64,000 nt of DNA, taken from the NCBI RefSeq assembly GCF_011064545.1, contig NZ_JAAMFG010000037.1:1-64000 (forward strand), in the 5' to 3' direction. The position numbers and the translations under genes are program-made. The notes under the pieces are model-generated. The model saw only the letters and a list, made by a program, of their open reading frames with translations. It did not search any database and was not told the origin of the DNA. This DNA comes from Wenzhouxiangella sp. XN24. GTDB lineage: Bacteria > Pseudomonadota > Gammaproteobacteria > Steroidobacterales > XN24. This document shows, one piece after another, positions 20,055-28,872 of the stretch; the stretch's first letter is position 1; each line of letters starts with the position of its first letter.

Positions 20055-21035
20055 TCAGATCCCGGGCACGCCGAGGATAGTCGCCCCGTCGTCCCGCGGC
20101 CAGCGTTCCCGCGGGATTGCTGTCTGGAAGTCGTCCGGCTTGACCACCAGCAAGTCGCAAGGTAGCCGGTCCAGGACGCGCTCGGCCGTGCTGCCGATGA
20201 ATACGCGGCCGAAGGGATTGCGCGCGATGGCCCCCATCACGACCAGGTCCGCGGCCGTCTCGCTACAGTATTCCGGCAGCTCGATCTCCGGTCGGCCTTC
20301 GACGAGGGCGACCCGTGCGGGTGAGGCATCGACCGCGGCGAGCGCCGCGTAGACGGCTTCCCGGTGCCTTTGCTCCGTCTCGGGGTCGGCAAAGTCCGGC
20401 ATCAGCGGGTGCTCGGCCTCGCCGACGAAGGCGCGGAGTTTCCGCTGCCAGGCGTGAAAAGCGTGCAACGTGCCACCGGCACCTGCAGCGAACTGGCCGG
20501 CAAGCCGCAGGATGCCGGCGTCGAGCTCCTCCCGGCGGCCATGGCGCTGCGTCGGGTCGATCGACGCGACGATCACGGGAGAATCGCGCCACGGCTTCCC
20601 GTGCGTGAGCAACACCGGCGAGGGACAATGACGCACCAGTTGCCAGTGGGCCGCGGACAGTGCCCCGCCACGGGGATCGTCCTGTCCCGGCAGCGCGACG
20701 ACCAGCAGGTTCGCGGCGCGCTCCAGTACGCGGCGAATCAGGGCTTCCTCGAACGGGTGGTCCCAGACGGCGTGCGCCTCGACGTGGCCGGCGAAGCCGA
20801 GTTCCGGCGCGGCGGCCAGCAAACGCTCGACATTCCGCGCGCAGAGCGAGTCGCGCGCATGCTCCATGCTTTCCCGGGTCGCGAAATGCGCCAGCGACAC
20901 GTGGGGATTGTAGACGGGACTGAACAACTCCAGCGCGGCGCCGAGTTGCCCGGCGAGGCGTGCGCCGACCTGTGCCGCGGCCAGCGATGTGGCGCGCGGA
21001 TCGACACCCACCAGGATTCGTCCGAAGTTGCTCAT
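20055..21035 (-). CDS. Tandem universal stress protein (UspE-like)
   Basis: 326 residues from the ATG at 21035, forming two UspA domains (about 1-150 and 155-310). The second carries the ATP-binding type motif G-x2-G-x9-G-S/T in MGAIARNPFGRVFIGSTAERVL (read as MGAIARNP and FGRVFIGSTAERVL), so this half may bind nucleotide. The first half lacks a clear copy. The double-domain layout matches UspE, linked to stress survival and cell interactions. The gene is divergent from the FixL-like kinase with about 135 bp between starts. Tandem Usp genes often belong to oxygen-limitation regulons, which fits the neighbours, but no FNR-type box is visible in this gap. Confidence 0.9.
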   Translation of the reverse strand: MSNFGRILVGVDPRATSLAAAQVGARLAGQLGAALELFSPVYNPHVSLAHFATRESMEHARDSLCARNVERLLAAAPELGFAGHVEAHAVWDHPFEEALIRRVLERAANLLVVALPGQDDPRGGALSAAHWQLVRHCPSPVLLTHGKPWRDSPVIVASIDPTQRHGRREELDAGILRLAGQFAAGAGGTLHAFHAWQRKLRAFVGEAEHPLMPDFADPETEQRHREAVYAALAAVDASPARVALVEGRPEIELPEYCSETAADLVVMGAIARNPFGRVFIGSTAERVLDRLPCDLLVVKPDDFQTAIPRERWPRDDGATILGVPGI

Positions 21036-21170
21036 GATGCCTTGCCGGCTGCCCTGCCCGCGACACGCGGGATGCGTCGGGCATGTCCCTACGGTTATTC
21101 TAGTCGGGCATTTGCAGACCGGCCACGCGCCCGGCCCAGCCGGGGCCCGCCAAAGGAACACCCCGAGCCG

Positions 21171-23498
21171 ATGGATACTTCCGACACGATGCCGGCCACC
21201 GCCCCGCCCGAACAAAGCCGGCGCGCCCAGAGCAAGCTGGCGGCATTGCTGAACGCGACGCCCGATGCCGTGATCCTGATCGACGGCAACGGCATCATCG
21301 AGTCCTTCAACCCGGGCGCAGAACGGATCTTCGGCTACAGTGCGAAGGAAATCGTCGGCCAGAACGTCGCCATGCTGATGCCGTTGCCGGTCCGCTCCGG
21401 GCACGACGGCTATATCCAGCGCTACCAGCGGACCGGCGAGGCGCGCTTCATGCTGGCGCCGCGCGAGGTCGAGGCCTGTCGCAAGGACGGCTCGCTGTTT
21501 CCGGCCGAAGTCTCCGTGGGCCAGGTGGACGGCGCGGAATTGTCGAGCTTTATCGGCATCATCCGCGACATCAGCGAGCGGGTCGCCGCCGAGGCGCGGC
21601 TGCACCAGGTCGAAGCCAACCTCCTCACCGCCCAGTCGCTGGCACACGTGGGCAGCTTCGAAGGCGACTGGCCGGCCTCGGGCGCCAACTTCTGGTCCGA
21701 CGAATTCTTCCGCATCGCGGGGCTCAGTCCCGACCAGGCCCCCATGAGCCAGGCGGACTTCGTCGCCCGCTTCGCGCATCCCGACGATCGCCCGCACGTC
21801 GAAGCACGCCTGGCGGAAGATGCATCAAAGTCCTCCGGCGGCGGGGAACTCGAGTACCGGATCATCCGGCCGGACGGGACCATCCGCCATATCCAGACGA
21901 TCTACCAGATCGTCGCCAACCCGATCACCGGCAAGCGGCGGATCGAAGGCACGATACTCGACCAGACCTTCCGGCGGCACGCCGAGGAAGCGCTGCGGCG
22001 GGAGCGCGATCGCGCCCAGCGTTATCTCGACCTGGTGAACGTCATGATCATCGCCGTGAACCGTGCCGGGCGGATCACGCTGGTGAATCGCAAGGCCTGC
22101 GAGCTCTTCGGCACGCCGGAACACGAACTGATCGGCAAGGACTTTTTTGCCGCCTGCCAGCCGCCGGGTTTTGCCGGACGCTCGAGAATCCTCTTCGAGG
22201 AGGCGCTGGCCGGGCGCGAATCCAGTTTCAGCCTGCTGGAAGGCCCGGTCCTGACGCGCGACGGCCATACGCGACGGGTTTTCTGGCGAAACCAGTTCCT
22301 GCGCGATGACACCGGCTCCATCAACGGCGTGCTGAGCGCCGGCGAGGATGTCACTGAGCAGCGCGAGACCGAGGCCCAGCTCCGCCAGGCGGAGGAGGAA
22401 CTGCGGCTGATTTTCCGCCGGGCCCCGGTCGGCATGGCGACGCTCTCGGCCGCGCACGAAATCGACGGGCATTACCTGACCGTGAACCAGGCGCTGTGCA
22501 ACATGCTGGGCTACACGGAAAGCGAGCTGCTGGCCCGCTCGGTGCGCGACGTGACGCCGCCCGATGACATTCCCGATACGTTGCGCCAGTTCCGCACGCT
22601 GTTCGGCGGCGCCGATACCGTCAAGTACGAAAAGCGCTTCATCCACAAGAATGGCTCGATCGTCCACGCGCTCGTCCACCTCAGCGTCATCCTCGACCAC
22701 GAGGGGCGCCCGATGCTCATCATCAGCCAGATCCTGGACCGCACCGACGTGGTGCTGGCCGAAATGGAGGCCCGCAAGCAGCGCGAACGGCTCGCCCACG
22801 TGGCGCGGCTCGGGACCCTCGGCGAGATGGCGGCGGGGATCGCGCATGAGCTCAATCAGCCGCTCGCCGCCATCGCGAACTACACGCAGGCCTGCCAGCG
22901 CCTGCTGGCGGCGGGGCAGATGGAAGCGGACGAACTCGGCGAGGTCCTGGGCCGGGTCACCGGGCAGGCGCGCCGCGCAGGCGACGTCATCCACCGGCTG
23001 CGCGCTTTCGTGCGCCGCCACACGCCCGACCGCAGGCACCGTGACGCCAACGAACTGATCGTCGAGATCCTGCCGCTGGTGGAAATGGACTGCCGCTCCC
23101 ACGAGGTCGATCTGAAACTCCAGTTCCAGTCCGACCTGCCCAGGGTGCAGGTGGACGGCATCCAGCTCCAGCAGGTTCTCCTGAACCTGACGCGCAACGC
23201 CGTCGAGGCGATGAACGCCTGCGAGCCGGAGTCCCGGCGACTCGTCATCCGCACGGAGGCGCTCAGCGAAGACGAAGTGGAACTGGCGGTCGAAGATGCG
23301 GGCCCCGGCGTCCCCGACAGCCTGCTCGAACAGCTTTTCGAGCCGTTTTTCACCACGAAACCGGAAGGAATGGGGCTGGGGCTGTCGTTGAGCCGCTCGA
23401 TCATAGAGGCACACGGCGGCATACTGAGATACGATTCGGGCGCCGAGCTCGGCAGTGTATTCAGGATCAGGCTCCCCACGGCCCCCGAGGAGGAATAA
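21171..23498 (+). CDS. FixL-like sensor histidine kinase with four PAS domains and a probable haem-binding first PAS
   Basis: 775 residues. The first PAS (about 22-140) resembles FixL: FGYSAKEIVGQNVAMLMP, then RSGHDGYIQRY. His78 aligns with the FixL haem ligand (Bradyrhizobium His200), Arg84 with Arg206 and Arg98 with Arg220; the FixL His214 position is Arg92. Three further PAS/PAC units follow (about 150-275, 285-400, 405-530). The kinase core shows the phospho-His559 (GIAHELNQPLAAI), N box NLTRNAVEAM, DAGPGVP and FEPFFTTKPEGMGLGL. No membrane segment is seen, so it is cytoplasmic. The stop overlaps the FixJ-like start by one base (TAATG). Confidence 0.93.
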   Translation: MDTSDTMPATAPPEQSRRAQSKLAALLNATPDAVILIDGNGIIESFNPGAERIFGYSAKEIVGQNVAMLMPLPVRSGHDGYIQRYQRTGEARFMLAPREVEACRKDGSLFPAEVSVGQVDGAELSSFIGIIRDISERVAAEARLHQVEANLLTAQSLAHVGSFEGDWPASGANFWSDEFFRIAGLSPDQAPMSQADFVARFAHPDDRPHVEARLAEDASKSSGGGELEYRIIRPDGTIRHIQTIYQIVANPITGKRRIEGTILDQTFRRHAEEALRRERDRAQRYLDLVNVMIIAVNRAGRITLVNRKACELFGTPEHELIGKDFFAACQPPGFAGRSRILFEEALAGRESSFSLLEGPVLTRDGHTRRVFWRNQFLRDDTGSINGVLSAGEDVTEQRETEAQLRQAEEELRLIFRRAPVGMATLSAAHEIDGHYLTVNQALCNMLGYTESELLARSVRDVTPPDDIPDTLRQFRTLFGGADTVKYEKRFIHKNGSIVHALVHLSVILDHEGRPMLIISQILDRTDVVLAEMEARKQRERLAHVARLGTLGEMAAGIAHELNQPLAAIANYTQACQRLLAAGQMEADELGEVLGRVTGQARRAGDVIHRLRAFVRRHTPDRRHRDANELIVEILPLVEMDCRSHEVDLKLQFQSDLPRVQVDGIQLQQVLLNLTRNAVEAMNACEPESRRLVIRTEALSEDEVELAVEDAGPGVPDSLLEQLFEPFFTTKPEGMGLGLSLSRSIIEAHGGILRYDSGAELGSVFRIRLPTAPEEE

Positions 23499-24121
23499 TG
23501 GCGACAAGCGAGGCCACAGTATTCATCGTTGACGACGACGAGGCAGTCCGCGACTCCCTGGGGCTGCTGCTGCGCTCCGCCGGCTACCGGGCGCGTTGCT
23601 ACGGCAGCGCCAAGGACTTCCTGAAGGCCTTCGACCCCCGCGACTACGGTTGCCTGGTGCTGGATATCCGCATGCCCGGCATGACGGGCCTGGAACTCCA
23701 GAAACACCTCACCGAGATCGGCTGCACGATTCCGATCGTGTTCATCACCGGCCACGGCGATATCCCGATGGCCGTGGAGGCGGTGCGGCTCGGCGCCGTG
23801 GACTTCCTGCAGAAGCCCTTCCGCGACCAGGAGCTGGTGGACCGGATCAACGACGCGATGAAGCAGGCCGCGCAGCAGCGCGAAGGCCAGCTCGAGCGGC
23901 TCGAGATCCTCGATCGCGTGGACAGCCTGACCGCGCGTGAAAAGCAGGTGATGGGCCAGGTCGTCCTCGGCAAGGCCAACAAGGTCATCGCCGGCGACCT
24001 CGGCGTGAGCCAGCGCACGGTGGAGATCCACCGCGCCCGCGTGATGGAAAAAATGCAGGCCAACTCCCTGGCCCACCTCGTCCGGATGGTCATGGTGGCG
24101 GAGAATCAGCCAGGCGCCTGA
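23498..24121 (+). CDS. FixJ-family response regulator
   Basis: 207 residues. The receiver (about 1-125) holds the acidic pocket DDDEAVRDS, phosphoacceptor Asp56 (LVLDIRMPGMTG), FITGHGD and KPF. A LuxR/GerE helix-turn-helix follows (LTAREKQVMGQVVLGKANKVIAGDLG, read as LTAREKQVMGQVV and KANKVIAGDLGVSQRTVEIH). It is the obvious partner of the kinase whose stop overlaps its start. In rhizobia FixJ activates fixK, whose product binds TTGAT-N4-ATCAA boxes; a box of that type lies 1.9 kb downstream at 26004. No fixK gene is in the window. Confidence 0.95.
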   Translation: MATSEATVFIVDDDEAVRDSLGLLLRSAGYRARCYGSAKDFLKAFDPRDYGCLVLDIRMPGMTGLELQKHLTEIGCTIPIVFITGHGDIPMAVEAVRLGAVDFLQKPFRDQELVDRINDAMKQAAQQREGQLERLEILDRVDSLTAREKQVMGQVVLGKANKVIAGDLGVSQRTVEIHRARVMEKMQANSLAHLVRMVMVAENQPGA

Positions 24122-24154
24122 ACCGGCGGCTTAGGTAGATGTTCGTATTTCATT

Positions 24155-24220
24155 GCCCGGAGCGAGTTTCAATACTCGCAGGGTAAGAAAAAGAACATGA
24201 CTAAGAACGTCGCTCCGGGC
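24155..24220 (+). promoter_or_regulatory. Long inverted repeat between the FixJ-like and pseudo-receiver genes
   Basis: GCCCGGAGCGA (24155-24165) and TCGCTCCGGGC (24210-24220) form a perfect 11-bp inverted repeat around a 44-base loop, which itself holds a small CGAGT/ACTCG hairpin (24163-24178). It could be an RNA structure in the leader of the gene at 24259, an attenuator after the FixJ-like gene, or a spaced protein-binding site. No T-tract follows, so a simple terminator is unlikely. Confidence 0.5.
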
Positions 24221-24258
24221 CGGAGCGGCAGTGCCCCACGCCTTGCCGGTTCGAAACT

Positions 24259-24663
24259 ATGGCCCCAGTCCCTGAAAGCAGCGCTGAGGCACACCAGGCG
24301 ACCATTTGTGTCGTGGAAGGCGATGCCCGAGAGCGGGACGCGCTGGTCCAACTGTTGAGCCACCTGCAGCATGACGTCGATGCCTTTGACTCGGCGGAAG
24401 CGCTGCTGGCTGCGATCGACGAGAAACAGGCGCAGGTCCTTGTGACCGGCCTCGAGCTGCCGGGCATGAACGGTATCGAGCTGCTTCGCGAACTGCGCAA
24501 GCAGGGACGCCAGGTGCCCACGATCGTGCTGGCCGGCGAATCCGACGTGGCCACCGCAGTGGACGCCATCCGGGCCGGGGCGATGGATTTCATCCAGAAA
24601 CCGGTCATCGAGCGGATCGTGCTGCGGCGCGTGCGCGACGCCCTGGCCCAACCGGTGGCCTAG
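24259..24663 (+). CDS. Stand-alone pseudo-receiver protein
   Basis: 134 residues covering one receiver fold and nothing else. It is closest to the FixJ-type receiver beside it (ELPGMNGIELLRELRKQG, AIRAGAMDFIQKPV). The phosphorylation site is lost: the position of the acceptor Asp is Gly64 (VLVTGLELPG), and the usual acidic DD pocket reads EGD. It therefore should not be phosphorylated by the neighbouring kinase and may act as a constitutive or ligand-controlled binding partner. The ATG at 24259 gives a complete domain. It lies 137 bp after the FixJ-like gene, with a long inverted repeat between them. Confidence 0.85.
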   Translation: MAPVPESSAEAHQATICVVEGDARERDALVQLLSHLQHDVDAFDSAEALLAAIDEKQAQVLVTGLELPGMNGIELLRELRKQGRQVPTIVLAGESDVATAVDAIRAGAMDFIQKPVIERIVLRRVRDALAQPVA

Positions 24664-24801: not shown

Positions 24802-25935
24802 ATGCGAACCCTACTCAAACTCATTGTTTTCGTGATTCTCGTCGGCGTGCTGGCGCTCGGCGGACTGCGCCTGTATTTCGGCGGCGGCGCACCGTATCCC
24901 GCGCTGGTAGGTTCGCCGATCGTCGCCGAAGGCGGCCTCGAGACGGTGTTGTCTCATCCGGAACCCATCGGCAACGTCGCCGTCAGCGCCGCTGGAAGGG
25001 TGTTTTTCACCGTCCACCCCGAGGGACAACCGACCGGGCCGACGCTGCTCGAATGGCGCAACGGCCGGGCGGAACCCTATCCCGCGGCGGATCTCAACGA
25101 AGCCCTGCTGGAAACTCCCCTGGGCCTCGTGGTCGATCGCTTCGAGCGCCTCTGGGTCATCGATTCGGGAACCCACGGCCTGGGCCGACCAAGAATCGTC
25201 GCGATCGATCTCACGACCGATAGGGTCGTGCATGAACACGTGTTCTCGCGAGAGGTCGCCCCCCGCGGCTCGTTCCTGCAGGACCTGCAGGTCGATCCGG
25301 CGGGACGCATGATCTACATCGCCGACACGAGCTTCTGGCGCAAGTCGCCGGCCCTGCTCGTGTACGACAGCGCGACGCGGCGCACGCGTCGCGTGCTGGA
25401 AGCGCACGCATCGACCCTCCCGCAGGACTGGACCATCCGCACGCCCATCCGCGAGATGAAGTTCCTCGGCGGCGCAGTGACGATGAAACCCGGACTGGAC
25501 GGAATCGCGGTGGATCCGACCGGGCAATGGCTGGTGTTCGGCGCCATGGCGCACGACACGATGTACCGGATCCCGACCAGTGCGCTGGCAGATGAAGCAC
25601 TGTCCGACAGTGACCTCGCCCAACGGCTCGAAGCCCTCGGCAAGAAGCCGTTGAGCGACGGCTTGTCCGCGGATCTGTCGGGGAACGTCTACATCACGGA
25701 CGTGGAACACGGCGCCGTATTGCGCATGGCGCCCGGCGGCGGCCTCACGACCATCGTGCGCTCGCCGCGAATCCGCTGGGCCGACGGCCTTTCATTCGGC
25801 CCGGACGGCTGGCTGTATCTGGCCGACAGCGCACTGCCCCAGGTCGTGCTGCGCCCGCGCGGACACATCCGCGAACATGGCCCGTATCACGTGTACCGGT
25901 TCCGGCCGGGCACGACGGGTGTGCCCGGGCACTGA
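24802..25935 (+). CDS. Membrane-anchored SMP-30/Yellow-type beta-propeller protein
   Basis: 377 residues. An N-terminal membrane anchor or uncleaved signal (about 5-28) is followed by a six-bladed propeller with repeated NVAVSAAGRVFFT, LWVIDSGTHG, VDPAGRMIYIADTS, VDPTGQWLVFG, DLSGNVYITDVEHG and FGPDGWLYLADSA blades. LWVIDSG is the mark of the Yellow/major-royal-jelly group in the same superfamily as gluconolactonase-like hydrolases. Substrate unknown; the enzyme may act on a sugar lactone or may only bind ligand. A GGCGGACGG stretch precedes the ATG. The stop is followed by a short direct repeat and the small-RNA region. Confidence 0.85.
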   Translation: MRTLLKLIVFVILVGVLALGGLRLYFGGGAPYPALVGSPIVAEGGLETVLSHPEPIGNVAVSAAGRVFFTVHPEGQPTGPTLLEWRNGRAEPYPAADLNEALLETPLGLVVDRFERLWVIDSGTHGLGRPRIVAIDLTTDRVVHEHVFSREVAPRGSFLQDLQVDPAGRMIYIADTSFWRKSPALLVYDSATRRTRRVLEAHASTLPQDWTIRTPIREMKFLGGAVTMKPGLDGIAVDPTGQWLVFGAMAHDTMYRIPTSALADEALSDSDLAQRLEALGKKPLSDGLSADLSGNVYITDVEHGAVLRMAPGGGLTTIVRSPRIRWADGLSFGPDGWLYLADSALPQVVLRPRGHIREHGPYHVYRFRPGTTGVPGH

Positions 25936-25970
25936 CGCGTTCCTGGACGATGCGGACGCGTTCCTGGATG
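25934..25970 (+). repeat. Short 21-bp-period direct repeat
   Basis: GACGCGTTCCTGGA occurs at 25934-25947 and again at 25955-25968, period 21 bp, starting inside the stop codon of the propeller gene. Two copies only; function unknown. Confidence 0.7.
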
Positions 25971-26003
25971 ACTCTAGGGACATTCCGCAGGCAAGCCCGA
26001 AAC

Positions 26004-26045
26004 TTGATCCTGGTCAATAAAACCGGTCGCCGGCAGGCATATAAA
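26004..26045 (+). promoter_or_regulatory. FNR/Anr/FixK-type box and -10 element (class II promoter)
   Basis: TTGATCCTGGTCAA at 26004-26017 matches nine of ten fixed bases of TTGAT-N4-ATCAA. TATAAA at 26040-26045 is a good -10 element. A start seven bases after it (about 26052) places the box centre (26010.5) at -41.5, the standard class II position for FNR and CRP-family activators. No good -35 hexamer is present, as expected for an activator-dependent promoter. Confidence 0.65.
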
Positions 26046-26051
26046 TGTACC

Positions 26052-26192
26052 TGGCAGTCGAGACCACATGGAAGTGGCGCCGGCCGGTACGCCAAGGAGG
26101 CACCGCCGGCCGGTTTTGATGTCGGATTCTTGGCTGCCGACACTCTCCTCTTGGTTTGGGCCCTCTGACGTCAGTCCGGGGGCCTTTTCTTT
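26052..26192 (+). ncRNA. Candidate FNR-type-activated small RNA, about 140 nt
   Basis: The start is inferred from the promoter and the end from the terminator. Predicted elements in order: CCAC/GUGG hairpin (26064-26077); a stem of two CCGGCCGG copies (26080-26087 with 26106-26113) whose loop shows CCAAGGAGG; a TGTCGG/CCGACA hairpin (26120-26142); an unpaired C/U-rich stretch ending CTCCTCTTGG (26145-26154); and a terminator with a U-tract. The C/U stretch could pair with Shine-Dalgarno sequences, or with the CCAAGGAGG loop within the molecule. No convincing small ORF is present, and the gene downstream is on the other strand. Alternative: a 3' UTR of the propeller gene. Confidence 0.5.
26159..26192 (+). 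terminator. Rho-independent terminator of the candidate small RNA
   Basis: GGCCCTC (26159-26165) pairs with GGGGGCC (26178-26184), a 7-bp stem including one G-U pair, over a 12-base loop that contains TGACGTCA, followed by TTTTCTTT. The M48 protease gene ends at 26200 from the other side. Confidence 0.7.
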
Positions 26193-26199
26193 GCCCGGC

Positions 26200-27012
26200 T
26201 CAATAATCGCCCGGGCGGATGGGGTAGACCGGGCGCTCTCCGGGCGCCTCGTAATACGGCATCATCTGGTCAGCAAGGCGCGCCAGCGTTTCCTGGCGGT
26301 TACCGGGCGACGGATGGGTGCTGAGAAATTCCGGCGGACCGGCGCCGCCCGCCTCGGCCATCTTCCGCCACAGGGAAGCGGCTGCATCGGGGTCATATCC
26401 CGCCCGCGCGGCCAGTTCGATGCCGATCCTGTCGGCCTCGACTTCCGCCGCCCGGCTGTTGGGCAGGTTGATGGCCAGCAACGCGGCGGCGGCCGCGCCG
26501 GTCATGACGCGCTGGTCGCCGGTCGCGATTCCGGCCGCAAGCACGCCCATCTGGCTGGCCATGACCACCGACATGCGCTCCGCGGTGTGATGTGCGAGCG
26601 CATGCGCGATCTCGTGGCCGATGACCTGAGCGATCTCGTCGTCGGTCGCGTCGGTCTGCTCGATGAGCCCGGTGTAGATGGCCATCCGCCCCCCGGCCAT
26701 GGCCCAGGCATTGACGGTCTCGGGGTCGTCGATGACCTCGATACTCCAGTCCCAGTCGGCGGTGTTCGGATACTGCGCTATGGCCTGCGCCACGACGCGG
26801 CCGGTGATCCGGTTGACCCGCTCGACGATCTCGCCTTCGGCCTTGATCAGGCCCTTCTCGTCGAAAGCCTGCATCTGCTGCGTGTAAGCCGCGCGGGAGG
26901 AAGCGATCGCCTGGTCTGGCGAGACCAGCATCAACTGGCGCCGGCCGGTCGGGCTCGTGGCGCACGCCGCGAGGACGACGACCAGCAGGCAGGTCACGAA
27001 CAGTTTTTTCAC
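26200..27012 (-). CDS. M48 family zinc metalloprotease lipoprotein (LoiP/BepA-like core)
   Basis: 270 residues. The signal peptide ends in a lipobox (LAACATS, Cys about residue 17), so it should be a lipoprotein of the periplasmic side. The zinc motif HEIAHALAHHTAERM lies near residue 135, with the third-ligand region EVEADRIGIELAARAGYDPDAAA read as EVEADRIGIELAA, and the C-terminal STHPSPGNRQETL typical of the family. No TPR domain follows, so it resembles LoiP/YcaL rather than BepA. Such proteases degrade misassembled outer-membrane proteins. A tandem repeat with hairpins lies immediately upstream. Confidence 0.93.
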   Translation of the reverse strand: MKKLFVTCLLVVVLAACATSPTGRRQLMLVSPDQAIASSRAAYTQQMQAFDEKGLIKAEGEIVERVNRITGRVVAQAIAQYPNTADWDWSIEVIDDPETVNAWAMAGGRMAIYTGLIEQTDATDDEIAQVIGHEIAHALAHHTAERMSVVMASQMGVLAAGIATGDQRVMTGAAAAALLAINLPNSRAAEVEADRIGIELAARAGYDPDAAASLWRKMAEAGGAGPPEFLSTHPSPGNRQETLARLADQMMPYYEAPGERPVYPIRPGDY

Positions 27013-27037: not shown

Positions 27038-27105
27038 CCTGGCGCGCCTTGCGCCAGGCGTTTGGGTCGTACCTGGCGCGCCTTGCGCCAGGCGTTTGGG
27101 TCGTA
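27038..27105. repeat. Perfect 34-bp tandem duplication with a hairpin in each copy
   Basis: Two identical 34-bp units abut (27038-27071 and 27072-27105). Each contains CCTGGCGC-N5-GCGCCAGG, a perfect 8-bp inverted repeat, followed by a 13-base GTTTGGGTCGTA-type tail. The pair sits between the divergent starts of the M48 protease (27012) and the FAD oxidoreductase (27214). It may be a REP-like element or two tandem operators. Confidence 0.9.
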
Positions 27106-27213: not shown

Positions 27214-28872
27214 ATGCTCCCGAACCAGCACACGGACGTCATCGTCATCGGCGGCGGCCACAACGGGCTCGTCTGCGCGGCCTACCTGGCCGGCCGCGGC
27301 CTGAAGGTGACAGTGCTCGAACGGCGTCCCGTCCTGGGCGGCGCGGCCGTCACGGAAACGTTTCACCCCGGGTTTCGCAACTCGAGCTGCAGCTACACGG
27401 TCAGCCTGCTGGATCCGCAAATCATCACGGAGCTGCGGCTCGCGGAACACGGGTTGCGGATCGTCGAGCGACCGCTGGCCAACTTCCTGCCGCGCGGCGA
27501 TGGCACGGCCTTTCGCTTCGGCGGACCCGACACGGCCGCCGAGGTGGCGCGATTCTCGCGCCGCGACGCCGAACGGCTGCCGGCGTGGCTGGCCATGCTG
27601 GAACGGGTGGTCGTCGTACTCCGCGCGCTCGCGGGCGAGACGCCGCCGAACGTGTCGGACCGATTCGTCATGGCCGACTGGCTGGCGTCGTGGTCGGTCG
27701 CCAGGAAGCTCAAGGGTCTCGACATGCGCGGGCGGCGCGACCTGCTCGACTTGTTCACCAAGAGCGCAGGGGAGCTGCTCGACGACTGGTTCGAATCGGA
27801 TCCACTGAAGGCGGTGCTCGGCTGGGACGCGATCGTCGGGAACTTCGCCAGCCCCTACACGCCCGGCACGGCCTACGTGCTGCTGCACCACGTGTTCGGC
27901 GAGGTGAACGGGAAATCCGGCGCGTGGGGCCATGCGATCGGCGGCATGGGCGCCATCAGCGAGGCCATCGCCACCGAAGCGCGCCACCGCGGCGTGGACA
28001 TCCGATGCAATGCTGCCGTCGAGCGCATCGAGGTCCAGGGTGGCCGCGCCACGGGCGTGGTGCTGGCGGACGGGAGAGTGCTGCGTGCCCGCCAGGTCGT
28101 CGCCGGGGTCAATCCGAAACTGCTGTACACGCAGATGTTCGACCCGGCGGACCTGGACCCGGAGATCCTCGCGCGCTTCGGCCGCTACCGCTGTGGCTCG
28201 GGCACCTTCCGCATCAACCTGGCGCTAGCCGAGTTGCCGGACTTCCGCGCCGCGCCGGGCACCGAGTTACAGCCTCATCATGCCAGCGGGATTCTCGTGG
28301 GCGACTCGTTGCGCTATTTCGAGCAGGCCTACTTCGACGCACGCTCGCGGGAGCACAACCCGGGCTGGGCGCGTGAGCCGGTGGTGGAAATGGTGATTTC
28401 ATCCACCCTGGACGACACGCTGGCGCCGCCCGGCCGGCACGTCGCGAGCCTGTTCTGCCAGCACGTCAACCCCGCACCCGAGGGCGGCTGGGACCGTCAC
28501 CGCGAAACCTTCGCGGACCTGGCGATCGCCACGGTGAACCGCCACGCGCCGAATTTCGCCGCCAGCATACTCGGCCGCCGCCTTCTCTCGCCGCTGGACC
28601 TGGAGCGCGAATACGGCCTGCTCGGCGGGGACATCTTTCATGGCGCACTGGGCCTCGACCAGCTGTTCAGCGCGCGTCCGCTGCTCGGCCAGGCCGACTA
28701 TCGCGGCGCCGTGCCCGACTTGTACCTGTGCGGTTCGGGCACCCACCCCGGCGGCGGTGTCACCGGGTTGCCCGGGAGGAACGCGGCGCGCGAGATCCTG
28801 CGTGACGCACGCGGTGCACGGCGCCGTCGCCGCGGTCACTCCGGCGGCTTGAAGCCCTCGACAGAGCGATAG
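27214..28872 (+). CDS. FAD-dependent phytoene-desaturase-like oxidoreductase (PYROXD2/CrtI family)
   Basis: 552 residues. The N-terminal dinucleotide-binding fold is clear (DVIVIGGGHNGLVCAAYLAG, then VTVLERRPVLGGAAVTE). The middle has the CrtI-superfamily helper domain with GGMGAISEAIA and ADGRVLRARQVVAGVNP, and the C-terminus has LYLCGSGTHPGGGVTGLPGRNAA (read as LYLCGSGTHPGGGVTGLPG), the second FAD contact. It is nearer to the PYROXD2-like group than to true carotenoid desaturases, and no carotenoid genes are nearby, so the substrate is unknown. Starts ATG at 27214. The 3' end overlaps the convergent SdpI-like gene by 37 bp. Confidence 0.88.
   Translation: MLPNQHTDVIVIGGGHNGLVCAAYLAGRGLKVTVLERRPVLGGAAVTETFHPGFRNSSCSYTVSLLDPQIITELRLAEHGLRIVERPLANFLPRGDGTAFRFGGPDTAAEVARFSRRDAERLPAWLAMLERVVVVLRALAGETPPNVSDRFVMADWLASWSVARKLKGLDMRGRRDLLDLFTKSAGELLDDWFESDPLKAVLGWDAIVGNFASPYTPGTAYVLLHHVFGEVNGKSGAWGHAIGGMGAISEAIATEARHRGVDIRCNAAVERIEVQGGRATGVVLADGRVLRARQVVAGVNPKLLYTQMFDPADLDPEILARFGRYRCGSGTFRINLALAELPDFRAAPGTELQPHHASGILVGDSLRYFEQAYFDARSREHNPGWAREPVVEMVISSTLDDTLAPPGRHVASLFCQHVNPAPEGGWDRHRETFADLAIATVNRHAPNFAASILGRRLLSPLDLEREYGLLGGDIFHGALGLDQLFSARPLLGQADYRGAVPDLYLCGSGTHPGGGVTGLPGRNAAREILRDARGARRRRRGHSGGLKPSTER

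Follow-up and report, generated by a model that had tools for sequence, protein, structure and literature searches.

The window, i.e., the whole stretch of 64,000 nt analyzed here, contains a convergent intergenic gap flanked by a propeller gene on the plus strand (end at 25935), whose product corresponds to the Pfam family MRJP, and by an M48 peptidase gene on the minus strand (end at 26200). A putative sRNA gene with a predicted promoter of its own lies in this gap and was delimited by nucleotide identity, fold z-scores and a covariance model. All of its features are on the plus strand: an upstream promoter element (CTAGGGACATTCCGCA, 25974–25989), an FNR/Anr-type box (TTGATCCTGGTCAA, 26004–26017), a −10 element TATAAAT (26040–26046) and a predicted transcript of about 138 nt (26053–26190), composed of a long 5′ hairpin (26053–26138), a single-stranded linker (GACACTCTCCTCTTGGTTT, 26139–26157) containing the proposed seed (CTCTCCTCTTGG, 26143–26154), and an intrinsic terminator hairpin with a T-rich tail (26158–26190). 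The preliminary description had placed no sense gene within a kilobase; this was correct downstream, since the first recognizable sense gene begins at 27214, but not upstream, where the propeller gene stops 68 nt before the box on the same strand. Two possible regulators are also encoded on the plus strand, a FixL-like histidine kinase ORF with a heme-type PAS domain (20364–23498) and a FixJ response regulator (23498–24121), the latter scoring 261.2 bits against the NCBIfam FixJ model (cut-off 255). The fixL-fixJ-receiver set, found here in a gammaproteobacterium, extends over 20364–24663. Additionally, a perfect 34-base direct repeat in two tandem copies was observed upstream of the M48 gene (27038–27105).

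The box agrees with TTGAT-N4-ATCAA at 9 of 10 bases and the sequence TATAAA occupies 26040–26045, 22 nt 3′ of the box, both as originally reported. Since the box is centered at 26010.5, a transcription start at 26052 would place it at −41.5, the position first claimed; the start is a prediction, however, and the conserved transcribed block begins at G26053, which moves the box to −42.5. The promoter therefore combines a box near −41.5 with a −10 hexamer at the matching spacing in all three species compared, the arrangement of an FNR class II promoter. One-mismatch boxes occur twice in the window against 0.27 expected, and 3 of 100 shuffles reached this number, so the box by itself is just mildly unusual; the second copy lies inside the M48 gene. 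The box is imperfect, and the relatives carry TTGACCCGGGTCAA and TTGACCCGAGTCAA with TTGAC half-sites. Taken from the sequence, FNR control of this promoter is likely.

The proximity of the propeller gene, which runs in the same direction, raises the alternative that the stretch is the 3′ UTR of that gene with its terminator and no promoter of its own, conserved for mRNA stability or termination. A simple scan of the plus strand listed neither the proposed sRNA promoter nor its terminator, and it returned no terminator between the propeller gene and the box and no promoter of the sigma-70 type, as this alternative would predict. Against it, the box, the 22-nt spacer and TATAAAT were preserved in the three genus genomes, the conserved block starts at the predicted transcription start, and the C/U tract of the linker is invariant although it is unnecessary for termination. 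A mere 3′ UTR is hence regarded as decidedly unlikely, and an independent transcription unit is preferred.

The folding of the proposed RNA was better than that of dinucleotide shuffles in the three species, with z-scores of −4.30 (window, 26053–26189), −3.89 and −3.00. The same design was obtained in all of them: one long two-part hairpin, which has an invariant arm, GGCAGTCGAGACC, and a GC-rich inner stem, followed by the single-stranded C/U linker and the terminator hairpin (26158–26185). The three hairpins described initially were reduced by this comparison, since the middle one (GTCGG..CCGAC) was not conserved in the alignment and the RNA consists of the long hairpin plus the terminator. 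The unpaired C/U stretch was borne out, as the linker is identical in the three species and unpaired in their three folds except for a 2-bp mini-hairpin, and the terminator was present at the claimed place, with its T-rich tail, and conserved in the three species. Covariation was considered as support for the fold and gave none, with compensatory double changes at 0 of the 41 pairs in the three sequences. A conserved short peptide encoded by the stretch was also considered. A frame of 72 codons (25950–26168) is open in the window, but the three species share no similar open frame, the frames being shifted by indels and broken by stops, and a small protein gene is scarcely credible. The element therefore presents what is expected of an sRNA gene: its own promoter, as predicted from the sequence, an intrinsic terminator and no conserved ORF.

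The genus was represented by three genomes, G000 (which includes the window), G001 (Thioalkalivibrio sp. XN8) and G002. Conservation of the box and the hairpins, fixed beforehand as the test by which the proposal could fail, was found at the same locus in the three genomes, the middle hairpin excepted. A DNA search with 25936–26200 in 147 relatives gave strong matches in G002 (82%) and G001 (79%), and the alignment preserves the upstream CTAGGGACWTTCCGCA, the box, TATAAAT, GGCAGTCGAGACC, the inner GC stem, GACACTCTCCTCTTGGTTT and the terminator. The RNA is 83.9% (G002) and 81.8% (G001) identical to that of the window, and the promoter stretch (25974–26052) 73.1 and 74.4%, respectively. In the propeller gene, identity at third codon positions was 52.0% (G002) and 51.5% (G001); in the M48 gene, scored in G002, it was 57.8%. 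A covariance model (R1) recovered its three source species with E values of 4.3e-33 to 1.5e-39, values that are true by construction since R1 was built from them.

Across the 396 genomes of the order that were searched, the element was not found outside the genus. The DNA search returned 15 genomes at E ≤0.01, three of them being the genus with the window included; the matches in the other 12 spanned 22–39 bases (E 2.8e-4 to 0.01), and no such element was seen around the match in the two that were inspected (L005 and L013). R1 matched six of the 396 genomes, three of them from the genus; the remaining matches (L020–L022) were rejected, lacking the box, the C/U tract and the 5′ arm in their surroundings, and L020 shares a similar terminator only. 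This search used strict filters and scored up to eight candidates per genome, so weak homologues may be missed. With looser filters on 37 genomes, eight matched at E ≤1, again including the three of the genus, and the weak matches L082–L088 had no box or C/U tract close by, L084 and L087 containing a 13-mer similar to the 5′ arm with two mismatches. A pattern scan of the genome contigs gave nine stretches, of which R1 matched that of XN8 (L049) and not the other eight; as a stretch had to contain both the C/U tract and TATAA, variants would go unnoticed. The propeller protein was present in 19 of 117 genomes (20 loci, examined with 1.5-kb flanks), and the searched elements co-occur beside its gene in the genus only. 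One-mismatch boxes without the other elements were observed at L027, L029, L030, L033, L040 and L043, although at L040 a C/U match with two mismatches was present at another place. A real and genus-specific sRNA gene is the likeliest explanation.

Proteins with a Crp-type HTH were found in all seven genomes searched (G000–G006, one family), with eight matches in G000, and one such protein in each genus member has the arrangement CxxC-x5-C. In G000, the fourth cysteine of this protein aligns with that of FNR, the best match among solved structures (PDB) was FNR (E 5.8e-53) and the best NCBIfam match was Fnr, at 216.6 bits just below the cut-off of 228. Four cysteines together with the PDB match to FNR are the marks of an oxygen-sensing FNR protein. 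The protein also contains the letters E..SR, which we take to be FNR/Anr-type recognition residues. Exact TTGAY-N4-RTCAA boxes numbered 9, 7 and 6 in G000, G001 and G002, against 2, 2 and 0 in the controls, and 15 of these 22 loci plus that of the window itself were inspected. A box of the same class lies between the FNR/Anr-type gene and ompW (labeled by Pfam in 3/3) in the three genomes, with TAGAAT 21 nt further.

Another Crp/Fnr-family protein, such as a DNR/NNR-like sensor of nitric oxide, or FixJ alone might be the main regulator of an otherwise real sRNA gene. The eight Crp-type HTH matches in G000 mean that another family member might act, and the TTGAC half-sites of the relatives, the conserved upstream element and the nearby fixLJ genes agree with this possibility. 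It was considered unlikely in view of the E..SR letters of the FNR/Anr-type protein and of the box of the same class adjoining its gene, and an FNR/Anr-type activator is retained as the preferred one. Two further observations were made among the inspected boxes. An FNR-type palindrome lies beside an elongation-factor-G-like gene in the three species (L057, L058 and L059, near 1501; labeled by Pfam for L058, the others being alike by eye), on the side of the frame starting near MLD-S--MTPR. In two species, an FNR-type box is located upstream of an MMPL-family gene (Pfam; L063:1501 in G000, L067:1501 in G002), and no good −10 element was found there at class II distance.

The promoter as first read, from the box and the −10 element, holds but was incomplete, because a further conserved element, possibly a FixJ site, had been overlooked. 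This upstream element, centered at about −71, is invariant in 15 of 16 columns across the three species. The FixJ site of S. meliloti fixK is TAAGTAATTTCCCTTA (PMC4999443), and the best agreement with it, when both strands and small shifts were allowed, was 10/16 positions for the element of the window and 9/16 for that of G001; when the G001 element was shuffled 20,000 times, 0.23% of the shuffles reached 10/16 and 1.9% reached 9/16. Other consensus forms of FixJ sites exist and a common consensus is described as lacking (PMC4999443). Allowing up to two mismatches gave 6, 6 and 2 copies of the element in G000, G001 and G002 and 8, 9 and 3 of its reversed control, so the element is not enriched by number alone.

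The fixLJ genes are located 2 kb upstream of the sRNA locus, and the gene order fixL-fixJ-receiver-propeller is common to the window, G001 and G002. The best solved-structure matches of the FixL-like ORF were FixL, aligned at the RS-x-HD histidine and at an arginine; against the NCBIfam FixL model it scored 402.7 and did not reach the cut-off of 850. In G003, fixL, fixJ, receiver and propeller appear in this order with other genes between the last two, and no sRNA element follows the propeller gene. The 12-kb stretches of G116, G012 and G100 contain the propeller gene and gave no fixLJ match. A FixJ input at the sRNA promoter, which we infer from this neighborhood and the site likeness, may be taken as a lead.

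Separately, a conserved stretch of about 350 nt that seems to be noncoding was observed upstream of slyX (Pfam, L073) in G001 (L071:1500–1850) and G002 (L073:1500–1850). It closes with a strong terminator, is preceded by an inverted copy, with one mismatch, of the upstream promoter element of the sRNA (CTAGGGAC-N-TTCCGCA) and has a fold z of −2.27 (L071:1560–1840). No Rfam match was obtained for it at E ≤1, and it is possibly a second orphan RNA.

Masking of ribosome-binding sites by the C/U tract, as proposed at the outset, was supported in part: the pairing with the hvfA leader is strong in G000 and G002, but it is ordinary in G001 and near-complements of the seed were not enriched. The pattern AAGAGGAG-N2-10-ATG gave 19 rows in the three genomes (3, 9 and 7, against 1, 5 and 1 for the control), counts that are no evidence for targeting because AAGAGGAG makes a good Shine-Dalgarno sequence in its own right. 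In whole genomes, near-complements of the seed with one mismatch (AAYCAAGAGGAG) numbered 5, 3 and 4, one per genome being the sRNA locus itself, against 3, 7 and 6 for the control. One G001 row of the Shine-Dalgarno-type pattern was the leader of a protein with EGKCG repeats (hvfA). The EGKCG proteins of G001 and G000 scored above the NCBIfam cut-off for the HvfA-repeat domain and below that of the HvfA equivalog. GAAACCAAGAGctgacAAACCAAGAGagagagGG precedes the start of the G000 orthologue, which was found by synteny, and the G002 orthologue carries GAACCGAGAGAGAGAGG.

The duplexes of the sRNA with the hvfA leaders reached −22.7 (G000), −22.8 (G002) and −18.3 kcal/mol (G001). Among 453 sampled leaders of G000 the mean was −11.5 kcal/mol (SD 3.2), one reaching −22 (at −23.0) and 12 reaching −18. 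The hvfA leaders of G003–G006, where the searches recovered no sRNA, gave −12.1, −13.5, −18.1 and −15.5, and the G001 duplex is no better than that of G005. Against this background, therefore, hvfA stands out in G000 and G002 and not in G001. The 10-mer AAACCAAGAG occurs twice in the G000 hvfA leader, and the longest unbroken Watson-Crick match among the 453 leaders was 8, rising to 9 when the linker was extended; the unbroken match in G002 includes a G-U pair, and 25 of the 453 leaders equal that run if G-U is allowed. In a first background test, with a longer linker including variable bases, hvfA (−28.0) was second, one of the 453 being better (−28.4). Because a home-made rule was used to assign gene starts, miscalled genes are present among the 453 leaders, and hvfA under its right start is absent from them; moreover, the hvfA link emerged after a choice among several candidates. 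From these sequences, hvfA would be the best target lead, with a convincing pairing in two of the species and an unremarkable one in the other.

Other strong candidate sites were not shared among the species. The MKNNFFRV gene was rejected as a shared target, because its site AATCAAGAGGAG is the best one in G001 and G002 and the gene has no match in G000. The gene of a 118-aa protein (G000 and G001) was discarded on its weaker duplexes (−15.5 and −18.8). An RND adaptor candidate, considered in G000, has TACCAAGAGGAGAG before its GTG start.

MNIO enzymes use oxygen, and EGKCG-repeat metallophore precursors are modified by iron enzymes that need it. In G000, hvfA is preceded by the genes of a sigma factor and a DUF3379 protein and followed by methyladenine glycosylase and MAPEG genes, and no MNIO gene was found among these neighbors. 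Sizeable proportions of the Buf1 and Buf2 precursors are encoded away from MNIO genes (PMC12452194), and stand-alone precursor genes are mentioned in one of the figure legends of that article.

Conservation, promoter architecture, the single-stranded tract in the folds and the complementarity are computed results. A stand-alone sRNA gene activated by FNR, whose product acts in trans and covers ribosome-binding sites with its C/U tract, is, on this basis, the probable explanation. Under low oxygen, an FNR/Anr-type regulator would bind the box at about −41.5 and activate the TATAAAT promoter, and a second regulator, possibly FixJ from the neighboring fixLJ, may be bound at about −71. An RNA of about 138 nt, ending at its own terminator, would then block the translation of target mRNAs by pairing its single-stranded GACACUCUCCUCUUGGUUU to their ribosome-binding region, with hvfA, encoding an EGKCG-repeat metallophore precursor, as the best target lead; from the computed features we infer the transcription of the RNA, its oxygen control, the FixJ input and the direction of target regulation. 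A further and doubtful step would be a dual oxygen-sensor gate, with heme FixL/FixJ and iron-sulphur FNR acting on one promoter and the RNA shutting off the HvfA RiPP precursor. Since HvfA maturation is thought to need oxygen, such a shut-off would spare a peptide that the cell could not finish.

The element adds a candidate oxygen-controlled sRNA to a little-studied gammaproteobacterial group, with Thioalkalivibrio sp. XN8 as one named carrier. If the hvfA pairing is true, production of a RiPP metallophore would be tied to oxygen sensing through an RNA; no report of such a link appeared in the titles and abstract openings of a literature search. The FixJ-like element would, in turn, put FixLJ and FNR at one RNA promoter.

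The window gave no Rfam match at the gathering score, and at E ≤5 only RF02278 and RF02967 appeared, both below the cut-off; membership of the element in a known family, FnrS included, was rejected, as no covariance model reached its cut-off. No mention of this RNA was found in the literature searched, mostly as titles and abstract openings. AniS and PhrS are low-oxygen sRNAs of other proteobacteria. PaiI and PcrZ have been described as such as well (PMC8139620). These four are linked to FNR, ANR, NarL or FnrL, and the element is set apart from them through Rfam rather than by direct alignment. It shares a C/U-rich stretch before the terminator with the Betaproteobacteria toxic small RNA (RF02278), which gave a weak match at 26131–26191; however, with 18.4 bits this match stayed below the gathering score of 50, and six pairs of the first stem of the family are broken in the alignment. 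FnrS of E. coli and Salmonella is a low-oxygen sRNA under FNR that represses mRNAs unneeded without oxygen (PMC8139620). The element resembles it as a proposed low-oxygen, FNR-controlled sRNA, a likeness drawn from sequence alone, but differs in its own sequence, locus and lineage. The rhizobial FixLJ-FixK system is similar in that a heme-FixL, FixJ and an FNR-family box are gathered in one neighborhood, together with an upstream element resembling the FixJ site of fixK; in contrast, the suspected end product here is an RNA and the host is a gammaproteobacterium.
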